Source: Nitrospira sp.
GTDB taxonomy: Bacteria; Nitrospirota; Nitrospiria; Nitrospirales; Nitrospiraceae
Reading direction: 5' to 3'
DNA: 64,000 nt
Assembly: GCA_035968315.1 (NCBI GenBank)
Contig: JAVYIN010000003.1
Span: forward strand, 62,001 to 126,000
The notes under the pieces were generated by a model, which saw nothing but the letters and a program-made list of their open reading frames with translations, searched no databases and was not told the origin of the DNA. This document shows positions 9,898 to 62,202 of the stretch, piece after piece. Position 1 is the first letter of the stretch, and every line of letters starts with the position of its first letter. The position numbers and the translations under genes are program-made.

Positions 9898-12315
9898 TTA
9901 GAAGAACCATTGGCCGCGAAAGAAGAACGACCGTGGCATCCCCGCGTGCGAGACGCCCAAGCCAATGCTCCCTTCGCCGCGATTGATGTAGTACTTCTGA
10001 TCGAACAGATTGACCACATCGAATCCGAGCACAAACTTCTGCCCGTCCCACGGCAACGGAATCACATGTGTAATCGACGTATTGAAGACGGTATAGGACT
10101 GGCTATGGGTCGAATTTGTCTTCGCATCCTCATCCGCCGCCGTCCGCAGCCCCGAGCCGAACAGCATCTGCCCGCTCACGGTCGTCCGCTCCTGAAAGCG
10201 ATAGCTGACCAGAGCCGAACTCGTGATCATCTGCGTATGGTCACAAAACACTCCGCCGGGCGAATTGACATCCCCAATCTCTTTCGCGTCCAGCAAAAAA
10301 TGCCCCGATTGGAGTCCGTAGCCTTTGCACTGGCCCCAAGCCGTGTTCAGCCGGGCCGTCAGATTGTCCATCACCTGGAGCTTCAACGCGCCGTCGATGC
10401 CCCGCTGCCATCCATAGTTAAAGGCAAAGTAGTTCAATAACGGGGTCGTGCCGAACTGCCCGGCGTCGGACAGATTGCGGGCCAGCTTGTAGTAGCCCGT
10501 CAGCTCAAACGTGGCCCAACTGGACAGCGCATGGTAACTGCCGATTTCGAAGTAATGCGCGCGCTCGGCTTTGGGCGCGATATTCGTCGTATCCTCCGGT
10601 GCCGCTTTCGTGCCGGCGGTATTCAGCTTCGCAAAGGAAATGGCCTCCAAATTCGGCGGCGTGAACATTCGCCCATAGAACACATGGAATACGTTCGATT
10701 GGCTGGCCTTGTACGTCGCGCCGAGCCGCGGGCTCAGCTGCGCCTCGTCCCGTTGATACTGCACGACATCCCCGCGCAATCCCAGATTGAAGGTCCACCG
10801 GTCGTTGGGCGTCCATTGGTCCTGAATCCAGAATTCCTGCCGGTAGCCGATGAGGCGATTGTCGGCATTGCGACCGATGACATTGCCCGTCGGATTTCCC
10901 GCGCCGTCATCCAGGAAGGTTGAGAGCCTGGTCTTGTTGACGGCCTGCGTCCGGTCGACTTGGAAGCCCGTCTTAATCAAATGCTCTTTGCTGTGGACAT
11001 AGGTGTAGTCCAGGCGAAGGCCGCCCGAGTAGGCCGTGCGATCCTGGCTGCCGGCGGAAAAGGGCTCCGTCTCGTCCGGCACGTAGGCAAGCACGTTCAG
11101 CGGATCGGTCTTGAAAGTGGCTCGGGTGTGCCGGAAGTAGCCCGCCAGGCTGAAGAACTGATTCGACGACACGTCATGCCGCCAGACCAGATGCGCATAC
11201 TGGTTCTGCTCCTGCTGATTTTCATCGACCATTTCCGACGGCACGGCCGAGAACCCCGCCGGCAGCAAGCCGGTGATCGCCGCGTTCCTCGTCTGGCCCG
11301 GCATCGTGGGAATCTGGTATTTCGCGACGGAGTTCAAAAACAGCACCGTGAAGTTGTTCGTATTGTCGTGCTGATAGTCGCCGCGAAACATGGTCTGATT
11401 CCGCTCGCTCTGCCCGTGAAAGATCGAATGGCCGAGCGTCGGCGGCTCGATGCCGCGATTGGTCGCGGTGTGACTGTTGAGAATGTAATAGCGGAATTTT
11501 TCTCCGACCGTCCCGCCATACTCGAACGAGGGATTAACCGTGCGGTTGGATCCGCCGAACATCTGCAGCGATCCGAATCCCGGCTTGGTGCCGCTCTTGG
11601 TCGTAATATCGATCAGCGCGGCCGCCTTGTTGCCGACGTTGGCTTCCATGCCGCCGAGCACAATGTCCGCGCGCTCCCACGAGCGGGGTGAAATGACATC
11701 GGAAAATGTGGACGAGACCGTCTCCGGAATCGGGACACCGTCGATGCGCAGCTGCAGATTGGCATGGTCCTGCCGGATATGGACTTGCTTAAGAGAGCCA
11801 TAGACCGCGCCGGGAATCGTCAGCAACACATCGTGCAGTTCGTTATTGTTGCCGCGCGGCAGCGCCTCGATATCCTTGCGGCTCACCGAATAGGTTTCGC
11901 TCGACGCCTTGTATTGAATAGGCGGAAGCGGCGACACCACCTCCAGGGCAATCTCCCTGGTTTTTGACAGCGTCAATATGACCGGCTTCGGCGGCTCCAG
12001 CCCCAGCACCAGAACGATATATTCGCTTCGGTAGGTCTCTTGCACGGCGCTCACCGAGTAGGTCGCATTCGCCGGAACCGAGACCGAGAACTCACCGGCG
12101 TCATTCGACACCGCCGTCGCCACCAGCCCGCCTTCCTGATCCTTCACCTCCACCACCGCTTGCCCGACCCGGCGAAGGTCCTGGTTCTGGACCGTCCCGC
12201 GAATCATGTTGGCCCCTTCCCCCTCTGCTCCATGAGCGACGGATGGACCCGCACATACACCGGTCAGGCTTCCGACAATCAATCCGGCACAGAGATGAAA
12301 CCATGCGCGCCGCAT
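9898..12315 (-). CDS. TonB-dependent outer-membrane receptor with N-terminal carboxypeptidase-regulatory-like domain
   Basis: The start at 12315 is preferred because GGAGG sits six bases upstream. The 805-residue protein has a signal peptide (residues ~4-30). It continues with a CarboxypepD_reg-like beta-sandwich (IRGTVQNQDLRRVGQAVVEV, ~38-120), a plug domain (SRKDIEALPRGNNNELHDVL to GGMEANVGNKAAALIDI) and a 22-strand-type barrel. It ends in an aromatic residue (FRGQWFF), as outer-membrane barrels do. Such receptors import scarce ligands such as siderophores, metal complexes, vitamins or glycans, using TonB energy. The ligand cannot be inferred. The upstream small His-rich protein gene and the downstream TonB-like gene suggest a metal-related operon. 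Confidence 0.9.
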   Translation of the reverse strand: MRRAWFHLCAGLIVGSLTGVCAGPSVAHGAEGEGANMIRGTVQNQDLRRVGQAVVEVKDQEGGLVATAVSNDAGEFSVSVPANATYSVSAVQETYRSEYIVLVLGLEPPKPVILTLSKTREIALEVVSPLPPIQYKASSETYSVSRKDIEALPRGNNNELHDVLLTIPGAVYGSLKQVHIRQDHANLQLRIDGVPIPETVSSTFSDVISPRSWERADIVLGGMEANVGNKAAALIDITTKSGTKPGFGSLQMFGGSNRTVNPSFEYGGTVGEKFRYYILNSHTATNRGIEPPTLGHSIFHGQSERNQTMFRGDYQHDNTNNFTVLFLNSVAKYQIPTMPGQTRNAAITGLLPAGFSAVPSEMVDENQQEQNQYAHLVWRHDVSSNQFFSLAGYFRHTRATFKTDPLNVLAYVPDETEPFSAGSQDRTAYSGGLRLDYTYVHSKEHLIKTGFQVDRTQAVNKTRLSTFLDDGAGNPTGNVIGRNADNRLIGYRQEFWIQDQWTPNDRWTFNLGLRGDVVQYQRDEAQLSPRLGATYKASQSNVFHVFYGRMFTPPNLEAISFAKLNTAGTKAAPEDTTNIAPKAERAHYFEIGSYHALSSWATFELTGYYKLARNLSDAGQFGTTPLLNYFAFNYGWQRGIDGALKLQVMDNLTARLNTAWGQCKGYGLQSGHFLLDAKEIGDVNSPGGVFCDHTQMITSSALVSYRFQERTTVSGQMLFGSGLRTAADEDAKTNSTHSQSYTVFNTSITHVIPLPWDGQKFVLGFDVVNLFDQKYYINRGEGSIGLGVSHAGMPRSFFFRGQWFF

Positions 12316-58553: not shown

Positions 58554-59504
58554 TCATCCCTCACTCCCCTCCCGACGATACCACTCAACAGTTTGGCGAA
58601 TTCCCTCGCAAAGCGGTGTCTGCGCTTTGAAGCCAAACGCATGCTGCGCCCGTGACGTATCGAGGCATCGCCGTGGCTGGCCGTTGGGGCGCGAAGCATC
58701 CCAGACAATCTTGCCAGCAAAGCCGGTTAGCTCGGCGACCATTTCGGTCAACGTCTTGATGGAGACTTCTTCCCCCGTTCCCACATTGACTGGCTCGTTC
58801 CCATTGTACCGTTCCGTCGCAAGGACAATCGCTTCAGCGCAATCTTTGACGAATAAAAACTCTCTCGTCGGCGTTCCATCTCCCCAGCATACGATTCGAT
58901 CATCCCCTCGACGAACAGCCTCGACGCACTTTCTAATCAACGCGGGAATGACATGGGACGTGTGCAAATCAAAGTTGTCTCCAGGACCATACAAATTGAC
59001 CGGCAACAAATAGATGGAATTGAACCCATACTGCTGTCGATAGGCCTGCCCCTGAACGAGCAACATTTTTTTGGCCAATCCATACGGAGCATTGGTTTCT
59101 TCCGGATACCCGTCCCATAAGGCTTCCTCCCTAAAGGGTACAGGAGTAAACTTGGGGTAAGCGCAAATCGTGCCGAGAGACACAAATTTCTCAATGCCCA
59201 ACTTCCGCCCCATCTCGATGAGCTGCACCCCCATCATCAAGTTGTCATAAAAGAATTTCCCGGGATTGTCGAGGTTCGCACCAATCCCGCCAACCCTCGC
59301 CGCGAGATGAATGACAAGGTCGGGCTTCGCATCACGATAGACGCGTTCGACCCCCTCTATGCTGACAAGGTCATACACTTGGCTTCTCGGCACGAAAACC
59401 TCCGTGGCTCCCCGTGCCCGAATTAACTCGACCACATACCGGCCAAGAAACCCTGCCCCTCCCGTCACCAACACACGCTTGCTTACCCAGAATCCCACCG
59501 TCAC
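58554..59504 (-). CDS. fcl: GDP-L-fucose synthase
   Basis: The 316-residue extended SDR epimerises and reduces GDP-4-keto-6-deoxymannose (from Gmd) to GDP-L-fucose. It has [20 protein letters not shown] (NADP loop), the [20 protein letters not shown] block, catalytic Ser in [10 protein letters not shown] and YGLAK, and [15 protein letters not shown]. The [20 protein letters not shown] region and [16 protein letters not shown] follow. It starts at a GTG that overlaps the gmd stop (GTGA). A second, less canonical paralogue is at 50737. Confidence 0.93.
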
Positions 59505-60511
59505 TTGCCTCCCTGTGTTCCCTCCAACAATCGCCGCTCGTGCTGCAAATCGGCATGTACCATTGTCTCCACCAGTTCAAGAAAAGACATTTTCGGCTGC
59601 CACCCCAATTTCCTTCTGGCCTTGGAGGCCTCGCCTATAAGCAGATCTACCTCCGTGGGGCGATAATATTTCGGATCGATCTTCACATATTGCTTCCAGT
59701 CCAGACTAAGATGGCCAAAAGCCACATCCAGAAACTCTCTGACCGTATGGGTTTCTCCGGTCGCGATAACGTAATCATCCGGCTCTTCTTGCTGCAGCAT
59801 CAACCACATCGCTTCGACATAATCTCCCGCATACCCCCAGTCTCGCTTTGCATCCAGATTCCCGAGGTACAGATCCTGTTGCAGTCCGAGCTTGATCCGA
59901 GCAGCTGCTTTCGTAATCTTTCTCGTAACAAACGTCTCTCCACGTCGCGGAGATTCGTGATTAAACAAAATGCCGCTGCAGGCAAAGAGGCTGTATGCCT
60001 CACGATAATTGACGGTAATCCAGTGCGCATACAGCTTGGCCGCCCCATAGGGGCTTCTCGGATAGAACGGAGTGGTCTCCCGTTGTGGAATCTCCTGAAC
60101 CTTGCCGAACATTTCACTTGAGGAGGCCTGATAGAACTTTGGCCTGAGCCCGGACTCACGAATGGCTTCCAAGAGGCGAACGGTGCCCACGCCGGTCACC
60201 TCCGCTGTGTACTCAGGCACATCGAAGCTCACTCGCACGTGGCTCTGCGCGCCTAAATTGTAAATTTCATCGGGCTGTGTGGTTCGGAGAATCTTATTGA
60301 GGGAACTGGCATCGTTGAGATCTCCATAGACAAGGCGCAACCGTACATCGGGAATGTGGGGATCCTGATAGATCGGATCGATCCGTCCGGTATTGAACGA
60401 ACTGGATCGTCGAATAATGCCGTAGACCTCGTACCCTTTACTCAAAAGCAATTCGGCAAGATACGATCCATCCTGACCGGTAATACCTGTGATCAACGCT
60501 TTCTTAGCCAT
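59501..60511 (-). CDS. gmd: GDP-mannose 4,6-dehydratase
   Basis: The 336-residue SDR makes GDP-4-keto-6-deoxy-D-mannose from GDP-mannose, which the ManC/ManB genes near 26-28 kb can supply. Characteristic features are [20 protein letters not shown] at the N-terminus, [13 protein letters not shown], catalytic Thr/Ser region [14 protein letters not shown], and [15 protein letters not shown] (YxxxK). [18 protein letters not shown] and the substrate-binding [14 protein letters not shown] are also present. It is translated with fcl through a 4-bp GTGA overlap, giving the GDP-fucose branch. Confidence 0.96.
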
Positions 60512-60538: not shown

Positions 60539-61045
60539 CTATGCCTGCACCACATCCCGCACATCGATTTCCACCGCGGCCGCTTGCTGAATCAGCCGAA
60601 CACCGATGACCAGCCGGTGGCGTTTTTCTTTACGGAGAAGGATCCCCTGCAGGCCCTGAAGCGGCCCCCGCACAACTTCCACCGTCATCCCTTCATGGAG
60701 GTAGGGGTGCGGATCATAGGGCAGCACGCTCGCCATGAGGGTCTTGATGGCGTCAATCTCTTCATCCGGGATCGGTTCAGGACGGCTCCCGCTCCCCACC
60801 ACTTCCACCACGCCCGAAACCTTCTGCACTGCAAGCTTGTCTTGCTGCAAGAACCGAACGAAGCAATAGCCGGAGAAGAGCGGGACTTCGACCTCTTTCC
60901 GCCGATCTTTCCACTGACTAAGCCGCTTCACCGTCGGCAGCAAGGGCTCGATCCCCTGTTTCTCCAATTGATCGCGCACCAACTTTTCATGGCGAGATCG
61001 AGTCCGTACAGCGTACCAGTGGGGAGATTGGTCTGTCTGGTTCAT
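60539..61045 (-). CDS. NusG-family (UpxY/RfaH-like) antitermination factor
   Basis: The 168-residue protein has an NGN domain (HWYAVRTRSRHEKLVRDQL, ~9-27, through EVPLFSGYCFVRFLQQDKLA) and a C-terminal KOW domain (HEGMTVEVVRGPLQGLQGIL near ~117-136). Specialised NusG paralogues such as RfaH, LoaP and UpxY bind RNA polymerase at the start of long polysaccharide operons and stop premature termination. Placement at the head of the gmd-to-polysaccharide block fits that role. Its first codons (MNQTDQS) are encoded by the end of a GTCTG-repeat array, so the N-terminus may have been reshaped by it. I see no clear ops or JUMPstart element. Confidence 0.88.
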   Translation of the reverse strand: MNQTDQSPHWYAVRTRSRHEKLVRDQLEKQGIEPLLPTVKRLSQWKDRRKEVEVPLFSGYCFVRFLQQDKLAVQKVSGVVEVVGSGSRPEPIPDEEIDAIKTLMASVLPYDPHPYLHEGMTVEVVRGPLQGLQGILLRKEKRHRLVIGVRLIQQAAAVEIDVRDVVQA

Positions 61046-61086
61046 TTAGTCTGTCTGGTCTATCTGGTCGGTCTCGTCTGTCTGGT
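61030..61086. repeat. Degenerate GTCTGTCTGGT tandem array, left side
   Basis: About 57 bases of imperfect units GTCTGTCTGGT, CTGTCTGGTCTATCTGGTC and CGTCTGTCTGGTT. The array covers the first codons of the NusG-like gene and the last codons of the four-helix-bundle gene (TRQTRPTR). A related array lies at 61451-61548 on the other side of that gene. Confidence 0.75.
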
Positions 61087-61449
61087 TGCAGTCCGGAGGT
61101 ATTTAATCAGGCCAGAGATCATCTTGCCTGTCTTCTCCGCTTGCGCGTAAATCTCGTCAAAGCTCTCTTGGGAAAGATATTTTTGGTCGACGGCCACATA
61201 GAGGTGGCTTTGAGTTTCTGCCGCTGAAGACATCGCTATGAATAAGAACTGTCCAAATTCTTTGTCCGAATGCCGGACAAATCCCTCAGCGATGTTAGAC
61301 ATTACTGACACAGACGCCGCTTGGATTTGTCCGCACAAACGAATATCTCTCTTCCAGGAGGAATTGCGGTCAATCGCTTCATACACGTGCCTCACGAGCT
61401 TTCGAGCCTCCTGCCAACAATCAAGATCTTCAAAACGCGTGATCTTCAT
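61060..61449 (-). CDS. Four-helix-bundle (23S rRNA intervening-sequence, IVP-type) protein
   Basis: The 129-residue all-helical protein belongs to the S23/IVP family often encoded inside 23S rRNA intervening sequences and also scattered through genomes. Visible are FEDLDCWQEARKLVRHVYEA (~6-25), RDIRLCGQIQAASVSVMSNI with AEGFVRHSDKEFGQFL, and AAETQSHLYVA. No enzymatic function is established. Repeat arrays of GTCTGTCTGGT type flank it closely: its C-terminal residues are encoded by one array and its promoter region lies in another. This suggests a mobile or repeat-inserted gene between the regulator and the NusG-like gene. It may not belong functionally to the polysaccharide operon. Confidence 0.88.
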   Translation of the reverse strand: MKITRFEDLDCWQEARKLVRHVYEAIDRNSSWKRDIRLCGQIQAASVSVMSNIAEGFVRHSDKEFGQFLFIAMSSAAETQSHLYVAVDQKYLSQESFDEIYAQAEKTGKMISGLIKYLRTATRQTRPTR

Positions 61450-61450
61450 T

Positions 61451-61548
61451 GCGCTAGACCATTTGGTCTGTTTGGTCTTTCTCGTCTATCTGGTCAACTG
61501 ACCGAACAGACCAGATAGACCGAATAGACATCTTTGACCAGACAGACC
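61451..61548. repeat. Degenerate GTCTG array with hairpin, right side
   Basis: Units such as TTGGTCTGTTTGGTCTTTC and the inverted forms CCGAACAGACCAGATAGAC make a composite array. It contains a perfect 11-bp inverted repeat: TCTATCTGGTC (61485-61495) and GACCAGATAGA (61509-61519). It brackets the IVP gene together with 61030-61086, and could be a terminator for the gene at 61615 or a recombination site. Confidence 0.7.
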
Positions 61549-61614
61549 GTCTTCGGATACAGCTTCGCCCTCTCACTTACAGTGAACAGAAAAACGCTCC
61601 TACAATCGCGCGTC

Positions 61615-62202
61615 TTAGACCGACGGTCCCAAGGCTAAGACTTTTCCATTCGGCACGAGCTGTTGCAGCAACAGCTCGCGATGCTCTCGCGACCGATCAA
61701 GATCCGCCAGCAACACCGCGTCAAACTCCCACCACGCCACCCTATCGGGCTTCGAAACCGGGTAGGACAAAAAGGTCTCCGCCTCGCCGTCGTCAATAAA
61801 CCCCACAAGCACCAAATCCATTTCCCGCAATGAGAGATAGGCCAATTCCGCCAATTCGTTCGTCCCGAAAATCACGACCCGCGTGCCACCATCCGCCATC
61901 ATTCGCGACAAGACCTCGCGTAACCGGGCACGCATCTCCCGGTAATGGGCCAACGAATATTGCATGTAGAGATACGTAAGACGGGATTTCTCGGCAAATC
62001 CCTGGGGCGTGAGCAAGTAGCGAATACGGTGAGAAGGAATGGTCGTGGCCTTGACGTACCCTTTTCGCGCCAGCCGTTTCAGATACAAATTGGTCAGGCC
62101 AAGCGCGACGCCCAATTTATTCGCAAGGGTACGCTGCGTGACCGCGCCGTCCCGTTCTAACTCCGTCAGAAGGATCAGATCCCGCTGCCCTTGAACATTC
62201 AT
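61615..62202 (-). CDS. MarR/winged-helix transcriptional regulator linked to exopolysaccharide
   Basis: The 195-residue protein has an N-terminal winged-helix domain (LILLTELERDGAVTQRTLAN, ~9-28, with KLGVALGLTNLYLKRLARKG as recognition helix and GYVKA wing). It continues with a linker (RLTYLYMQYSLAHYREMRAR) and a C-terminal Rossmann-like ligand domain (RVVIFGTNELAELAYLSLRE, ~108-127; VLVGFIDDGEAETF). The overall plan matches MarR-type regulators found next to EPS loci, whose C-terminal part may sense a metabolite. TGAACA half-sites lie at its start and upstream (62192-62246), consistent with autoregulation. The next genes upstream encode heptosyltransferases. Confidence 0.8.
   Translation of the reverse strand: MNVQGQRDLILLTELERDGAVTQRTLANKLGVALGLTNLYLKRLARKGYVKATTIPSHRIRYLLTPQGFAEKSRLTYLYMQYSLAHYREMRARLREVLSRMMADGGTRVVIFGTNELAELAYLSLREMDLVLVGFIDDGEAETFLSYPVSKPDRVAWWEFDAVLLADLDRSREHRELLLQQLVPNGKVLALGPSV

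Follow-up and report, generated by a model that had tools for sequence, protein, structure and literature searches.

In REP-RAYT systems, a single-copy RAYT gene serves many REP hairpins. Bacterial genomes also carry dispersed intergenic arrays of 7-bp units, the STRR or heptamer repeats such as GGGNATC and TAACTGA, and we know of no accepted cause for these bacterial heptamer arrays. The heptamer papers (e.g. PMC4692102, PMC4679880), in the portions available, draw no link between the repeats and IVP, and for the TAACTGA repeats horizontal transfer was proposed by a mechanism described as not evident (PMC4679880). The IVS of 23S rRNA carries an S23p/IVP ORF within inverted repeats, and in Coxiella the tandem heptamers GACAGAT precede this ORF in 2-3 copies depending on the strain (PMC4990558, in its accessible part); independently of our data, this hints that the array anatomy described here may extend to the rRNA copies. 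The PF05635 family, to which IVP belongs, has been likened to the Avd protein of DGRs in the available part of PMC10053308, and its type of domain is still called functionally uncharacterised in the portion of PMC11270868 that is accessible. The IVP family and the rRNA IVS were already known; within one open-access library, where no paper linking IVP to flanking repeats was found (subscription journals lay mostly outside the search), the general tie of IVP genes to inverted tandem arrays and to dispersed gene-less copies of them appears new.

The window, a 64-kb stretch of the genome of a Nitrospira species (the source genome, G000), contains at 61030-61548 a complete IVP/repeat element with inverted arrays at its termini, a unit of ~520 bp in which a PF05635 gene is flanked by 52-nt inverted arms of 9-bp repeats. 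The same limits also fit the comparison of filled and empty alleles as read by eye. The arms (61030-61081 and 61497-61548) are 73% complementary over their 52 nt, with a spacing of 415 nt. The downstream (3') arm in gene orientation is a tandem array of the 9-bp unit TGGTCTGTC (61029-61086, + strand, 6.4 copies by TRF), and the upstream (5') outer arm carries the TGGTCTGTC-type repeat inverted (61497-61549, - strand), with a 9-bp array of 3.3 copies detected by TRF at 61500-61529 (score 32). These coordinates agree with the claim of a sequence-only reading of this DNA that repeat arrays lie on either side of the gene. That reading had also placed an 11-bp hairpin in one array; the hairpin exists, formed upstream of IVP with an inner arm of the TGGTCTGTC-type repeat 5' of the gene (61464-61494, + strand), and contains a 21-nt arm pair at 81%, and by direct reading its perfect stem is 12 bp (61484-61495 / 61509-61520). 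With at most one mismatch allowed, GTCTGTCTGGT matches the window 10 times against 0.73 expected, a count that none of 100 shuffles reached, and eight of the 10 matches fall inside 61031-61547. When all 64 kb were scanned by a simple method, the array of the element was the sole one of period 5-12 over the threshold, and for inverted 10-mer matches sharing one axis within 600 bp the element ranked highest with 7, the runner-up having 4.

The genes around the element code for proteins. The host gene of the site is a UpxY/NusG-like antiterminator (60539-61045, - strand), followed by the downstream neighbor gmd, a GDP-mannose 4,6-dehydratase (59501-60511, - strand). On the other side, 40 nt of host DNA that is kept at empty sites (CTGTTCACTGTAAGTGAGAGGGCGAAGCTG.. 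on the - strand, 61550-61589) borders the element, and the upstream neighbor is a MarR-like EPS-associated regulator (61615-62202, - strand; 63.6 bits, under the TIGR04176 cut-off of 88). As the sequence-only reading had proposed, one array writes the ends of two proteins: the downstream array encodes the C-terminus of IVP (..TRQTRPTR, stop codon at 61060-61062) and the N-terminus of UpxY (MNQTDQ.., start codon at 61045). The element resembles the 23S rRNA IVS in its protein family and in an ORF enclosed by inverted repeats, whereas it is not inserted inside 23S rRNA, the window copy lying between protein genes, and gene-less copies of its repeat are dispersed in the genome.

The IVP gene (61060-61449, - strand) encodes 129 aa and is assigned by profile match and predicted structure to the four helix bundle proteins [PF05635, E 1.3e-31, 109.4 bits against a curated cut-off of 33.8; TIGR02436, 104.4 bits against a cut-off of 24]. 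A Pfam scan of the ORF returned PF05635 alone and no Y1/HUH, DDE, serine or tyrosine recombinase domain. The predicted structure (pLDDT 94) has as its top matches 2gsc (Xcc0516, Z 19.1) and 2rld (BT_0352, Z 16.7); the Xanthomonas protein is a ring of five according to the available part of PMC4990558. The predicted fold also appears similar to Avd of the DGR complex (Z 13.7-13.9, rmsd 1.8-2.1, where helical bundles unrelated to IVP reach 13.2), with a sequence identity of 6-7%, and Foldseek of the model gave E 0.07 for 4dwl. The net charge of the IVP core is only ~+1, which we count against the mobile-element reading proposed below. The nearest named relative among the matches listed is from a Nitrospira (L155, 76%). 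Across the genus, IVP is found in 59 of 79 genomes, with up to 10 copies in each and 201 matches in total.

To describe how often such arrays accompany IVP genes, the 250 bp before each gene were matched, inverted, to the 250 bp after it, with a threshold score of 12. The genus sample comprised 92 of the 201 matches, mostly the best-scoring ones, with four near contig ends left out; L122 was dropped (contig end, wrong frame), and 89 of the 91 loci had sufficient flanks. The diverse sample took the best 80 of at least 546 confirmed matches, which skews it toward the query because best-scoring matches were taken (L155 in it is a Nitrospira), and 77 of the 80 had sufficient flanks. Inverted 7-9-bp arrays widely bracket IVP genes in both. 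In the genus, 45/89 IVP loci reached the threshold, against 8/600 mismatched partners and 0/86 distal flanks. In the many phyla of the diverse sample (best 80 of at least 546), 55/77 loci did so, against 12/800 mismatched pairs and 1/72 distal flanks, and control ORFs of 80-200 aa from the diverse loci had inverted arrays in 8 of 189 cases. Thirty loci from 20 of the diverse-sample genomes, some of them loci already counted in that sample and all among the matches listed, gave 22/30 against 5/600. At a score of 15 or more, 47 inverted arrangements were found between the two sides of the gene against nine direct ones among the 77 diverse loci (best 80 of at least 546). The loci below the threshold, 44/89 in the genus and 22/77 in the diverse sample (best 80 of at least 546), count against generality; the possibility that weak-array loci are rRNA copies was rejected, as 20 array-poor loci had no rRNA match. 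The unit is mostly 7 bp long, both in the 55 diverse loci scoring at least 12 among the matches listed (7 bp in 42, 8 bp in nine, 9 bp in four) and in the 45 such loci of the genus (36, four and five). The upstream arm is G-rich, with sense-strand G exceeding C in 87 of the 94 loci scoring at least 13 among the matches listed.

On plasmids, IVP genes of Cyanobacteria are bracketed by heptamer-type arrays, which may be classic STRR words. Of 14 plasmid records, 10 were cyanobacterial and four were from Riemerella; scores were taken for the cyanobacterial records, and all 10 reached at least 14 (the null was not run on these). A Riemerella plasmid hit was set aside, because its record carries lepA and may be chromosomal. 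The IVP arrays resemble the STRR and heptamer repeats as dispersed intergenic arrays of 7-bp units, and the TAACTGA repeats may be of the same kind. In the Nostoc ATCC 53789 plasmid pNsp_b (L422, 277-955), IVP is annotated in two pieces with one inverted array pair around both, as if it were a decaying copy.

The repeat word follows the lineage of the IVP that it surrounds. For loci at different sites, the two correlate with r 0.204, a value that none of 1000 permutations reached. Pairs of IVP under 60% identity share ~2.8-3.1 8-mers, and in rising identity bins from 60% the mean number of shared 8-mers is 8.2, 17.6 and 23.5 (94, 16 and 4 pairs). The nearest relatives of the window IVP in this test, at L113 and L120 (67-69%), share its repeat. 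The source genome itself has a second IVP gene, 34% identical over the aligned part, with its own, different repeat of the GCTGATA type, likewise inverted (direct reading; array score 14). Similarly, at a site shared by G000 and G019 (L002 and L040), before one common gene that is presumably ybgC-like, the two IVPs are 33% identical and each has its own repeat; the loci share 35 8-mers, though the arrays differ by eye, and we attribute this sharing to flanks that include common host genes. From this covariation of repeat word and IVP lineage, IVP would most likely recognize its own repeat.

Comparison of the UpxY site among genomes revealed filled, empty and replaced alleles. UpxY matches at E <= 1e-30 were found in 66/79 genomes of the genus, and the UpxY tree left out six of these 66, which had partial or weaker copies. 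Filled alleles consist of array, IVP and array, and in many of them the ATG of UpxY is supplied by the array. In six empty alleles the array is absent and the conserved GTAAGTGAGAGGGCGAAGCTGTG runs directly into UpxY; a few further empty sites retain short array-like bits, and in G056 (L153) the otherwise empty site has an array-like footprint, ATGAACCGAACAAACGAGGCAGACC, that is the start of UpxY. By eye, some sites have worn arrays and no IVP gene, and the "empty" and "array-only" (seven) states were separated in the same way. There are 30 informative empty rows, not 31, because the site of G010 is N-masked. Genomes with filled and empty sites are adjacent on the UpxY tree, as in G052/G054 and G050/G049. 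The by-eye comparison of these alleles showed no target-site duplication and no fixed end, which we count against mobility.

We called an IVP type A when it reached 68% or more over its match. This type occurs in 14 genomes, once in each, and directly upstream of UpxY in 12 of them. In G019 it lies farther upstream with another IVP between, so that on contig C17 (L268 / L133) tandem IVP genes of different lineages precede UpxY, the type-A copy having internal stops; in G024 a type-A fragment is on a different contig, and IVP-coding sequence is also found upstream of UpxY. On the UpxY tree the 13 type-A rows require 13 changes, and the four site states taken jointly show mild clustering (22 changes against a shuffled mean of 26.4, with values equally low in 2/200 shuffles). 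On average IVP is less conserved than UpxY (78 vs 85%), and in 20 of 78 genome pairs it is the more similar of the two, by at least five points in seven pairs (IVP vs UpxY, 95 vs 85% in G029/G074 and 88 vs 79% in G050/G034). Co-inheritance of type-A IVP with UpxY is weak (r 0.27, reached by 78/2000 permutations). The type-B array at UpxY is clear by eye in some genomes, and several type-B loci score under 12 (L093, L096, L100, L105, L108 and L117), so the claim that one site may hold other arrays leans mainly on L002/L040 and on the solo site described below. The N-terminus of UpxY and the length of the array vary among species, G050 having a long NQT run.

The repeat of the window also occurs without an IVP gene, in at least 14 other places of the source genome, and these arrays look like gene-less copies of the IVP/repeat unit. 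We scored arm orientation at 34 array sites of G000 and G003. Paired arms pointed inward at 21 sites (7/14 in G000, 14/20 in G003) and outward at none; the remaining sites had a single forward arm (10), a single reverse arm (two) or a double forward one (one). Compensatory pairing inside the hairpins was rejected, as the arms pair with each other no better than with arms of other copies (1535/5000 permutations), the chance level within the repeat family. For one solo site the orthologous intergenic region was found in 29/30 loci, and by eye it contains the same repeat, an inverted different 7-bp family, other sequence or near nothing, being 9 bp long in L411 and L412. A solo array in G000 (L025 1568-1648; contig C5, ~11173-11253) seems by reading to encode the N-terminus of another protein downstream of it, MNQTDQMDQTD.., in the manner of the array at UpxY. 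In L006 (~1690-1720 and 1880-1915), type-A arrays have two other short-repeat families near them, one of the GCTGATA and one of the GAGTGAC type, and an ORF from 2750 reads by sequence as a Y1 (RAYT-like) transposase, the genome having one PF01797 match.

The number of gene-less copies is related to the IVP genes. Genomes with a type-A IVP (14) have a median of 23.5 type-A arrays against two in the others (p 3e-7, kinship ignored). Counted against this, 11 of the 65 genomes without a type-A IVP have seven or more type-A array hits, with 63 in G041, 37 in G042 and 29 in G058. Across the 79 genomes, array counts correlate with IVP number (rho 0.57 for CGTGAAG and 0.47 for the window repeat, phylogeny ignored). 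The backward control, valid for CGTGAAG, gave zero everywhere; for the window repeat it is unusable because the unit is nearly identical when read backwards. In these respects the IVP element resembles REP-RAYT, with a single-copy gene, cognate inverted repeats flanking it and many dispersed gene-less repeats, some of them hairpins. The two differ in that IVP has no Y1/HUH match, that array counts are independent of Y1 transposases and that the arrays are tandem 7-9-bp units, whereas the REP-RAYT repeats are palindromes.

These comparisons bear on what the sequence-only reading had suggested, namely insertion by, or co-evolution with, the repeat. The arrays across phyla, the covariation of word and lineage and the unit-free empty sites all agree with it. 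Array-flanked IVP genes, which it had advised seeking in other genomes, are present in the genus and in many phyla, and the element is missing at empty sites of the regulator. A strict view of one array for one gene is refuted, because the repeat is found gene-less at many unrelated places in the genome, one of the two outcomes that the sequence-only reading had named as refuting. The proposed slippage altering both proteins is supported only in part: species vary in the length of the array and in the N-terminus of UpxY, but a 9-bp unit preserves the frame.

Several processes could produce such patterns. The patchiness at UpxY is possibly due to recombination of the exopolysaccharide locus, and one could hold that presence and absence at the window site reflect homologous exchange of this variable locus between species and nothing else, with no transposition. 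The EPS-type genes around the site fit this account, and so does the UpxY tree, on which the type-A rows are so scattered that all 13 need a change of their own, 13 in total; yet it leaves unexplained the dispersed arrays, the arrays at IVP loci of other phyla, and the differing IVP/array pairs at one site and differing solo arrays at another, and as a full explanation we find it doubtful. We regard it as very improbable that the arrays came first, through polymerase slippage, and served as landing pads where IVP genes gather. Gene-less arrays are indeed common, and heptamers are over-represented in many bacteria, with slippage proposed as the cause in the accessible part of PMC4692102. This explanation was already weakened by our data, since the word of a slippage microsatellite should be independent of the lineage of the neighboring gene, and here it was not (0/1000 permutations); nor does slippage predict a word that follows lineage across sites, inverted arms on both sides of the gene, array-free empty sites or array counts that follow IVP number.

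The element could alternatively act as RNA, similar to the 23S IVS, with the arms forming a stem in the transcript that is cut by RNase III and with spread through a reverse transcriptase in trans. ORFs of one family inside inverted repeats, the tandem GACAGAT heptamers upstream of the Coxiella S23p ORF (in the available text of PMC4990558) and the apparent resemblance of IVP to Avd of the DGR reverse-transcriptase complex would all suit such a process. However, RVT_1 searches gave no match in the source genome (99.97% complete), which also sets the element apart from DGRs, nor in the IVP-rich genomes G003, G019, G024, G064 and G072; 35 of the 59 IVP-bearing genomes are without RVT_1, and IVP and RT counts are uncorrelated (rho 0.05). 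We therefore rejected RT in trans, and the RNA element as a whole seems distinctly unlikely. A Y1 transposase as the mover was likewise rejected, as G003 has 302 array hits and no Y1 match and the counts are uncorrelated; over the 79 genomes, array counts show an absolute rho below 0.09 with RT or Y1 (PF01797). It is also unlikely, if less so than the RNA element, that IVP binds the repeats as a regulator or as an RNA chaperone and has no part in mobility; the arrays would then be its operators or RNA targets, both in autoregulation of the IVP gene and at genes scattered over the genome. The lineage-specific match of repeat and protein, the dispersal of arrays and hairpins in the genome and an apparently Avd-like fold, Avd working within an RNA-protein complex, are what a regulator would lead us to expect; autoregulation, on the other hand, needs no inverted array beyond the far side of the gene, and the filled and empty sister sites and the swaps of repeat family at the solo site resemble insertion or replacement.

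The reading that joins the unit, its generality, its coupling to IVP lineage, the solo copies and the empty, filled and replaced sites is that the window probably carries a member of a widely distributed class of small mobile-type elements, with the IVP gene in the loop between inverted short-repeat arrays. By its model IVP is a four-helix bundle of Avd-like appearance, and a solved relative forms a ring of five; most likely it recognizes the repeat word of its own lineage. Such recognition would help the unit to settle into intergenic DNA, gene-less hairpins of the matching repeat would settle as dependents of IVP, and an array landing at the start of a gene could replace the start codon and the N-terminus of that gene with its own. 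Based on the comparisons of filled and empty sites, we infer that the unit would move and not merely be exchanged by recombination. This movement would rely on host functions, because no catalytic domain was recognized and RT and Y1 do not track the arrays. More tentatively, and at somewhat less than even confidence, an Avd-like five-fold ring protein with no known catalytic domain and the lineage-specific 7-9-bp repeats that it would recognize may together form a mobile class that spans phyla, with the 23S IVS as copies that landed in rRNA and much of the bacterial heptamer excess, STRR included, as gene-less remains.

IVP appears in the legend of a CRISPR figure in the accessible part of PMC10910872. 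In plasmids of Picosynechococcus PCC 7003 (L418) and Pseudanabaena galeata (L420) we observed array-flanked IVP genes between CRISPR genes, the neighbors being cas10 / cmr3 and cas6 / cas4; given the flanking arrays and this position, they resemble insertions into operons. If the proposed element class is real, IVP genes in CRISPR or other operons would be insertions and not parts of those systems, and IVP elements would be able to rewrite the ends of neighboring proteins. Since the lineage of an IVP predicts the repeat next to it, both the function of IVP and the origin of the heptamers would become testable through a binding assay.
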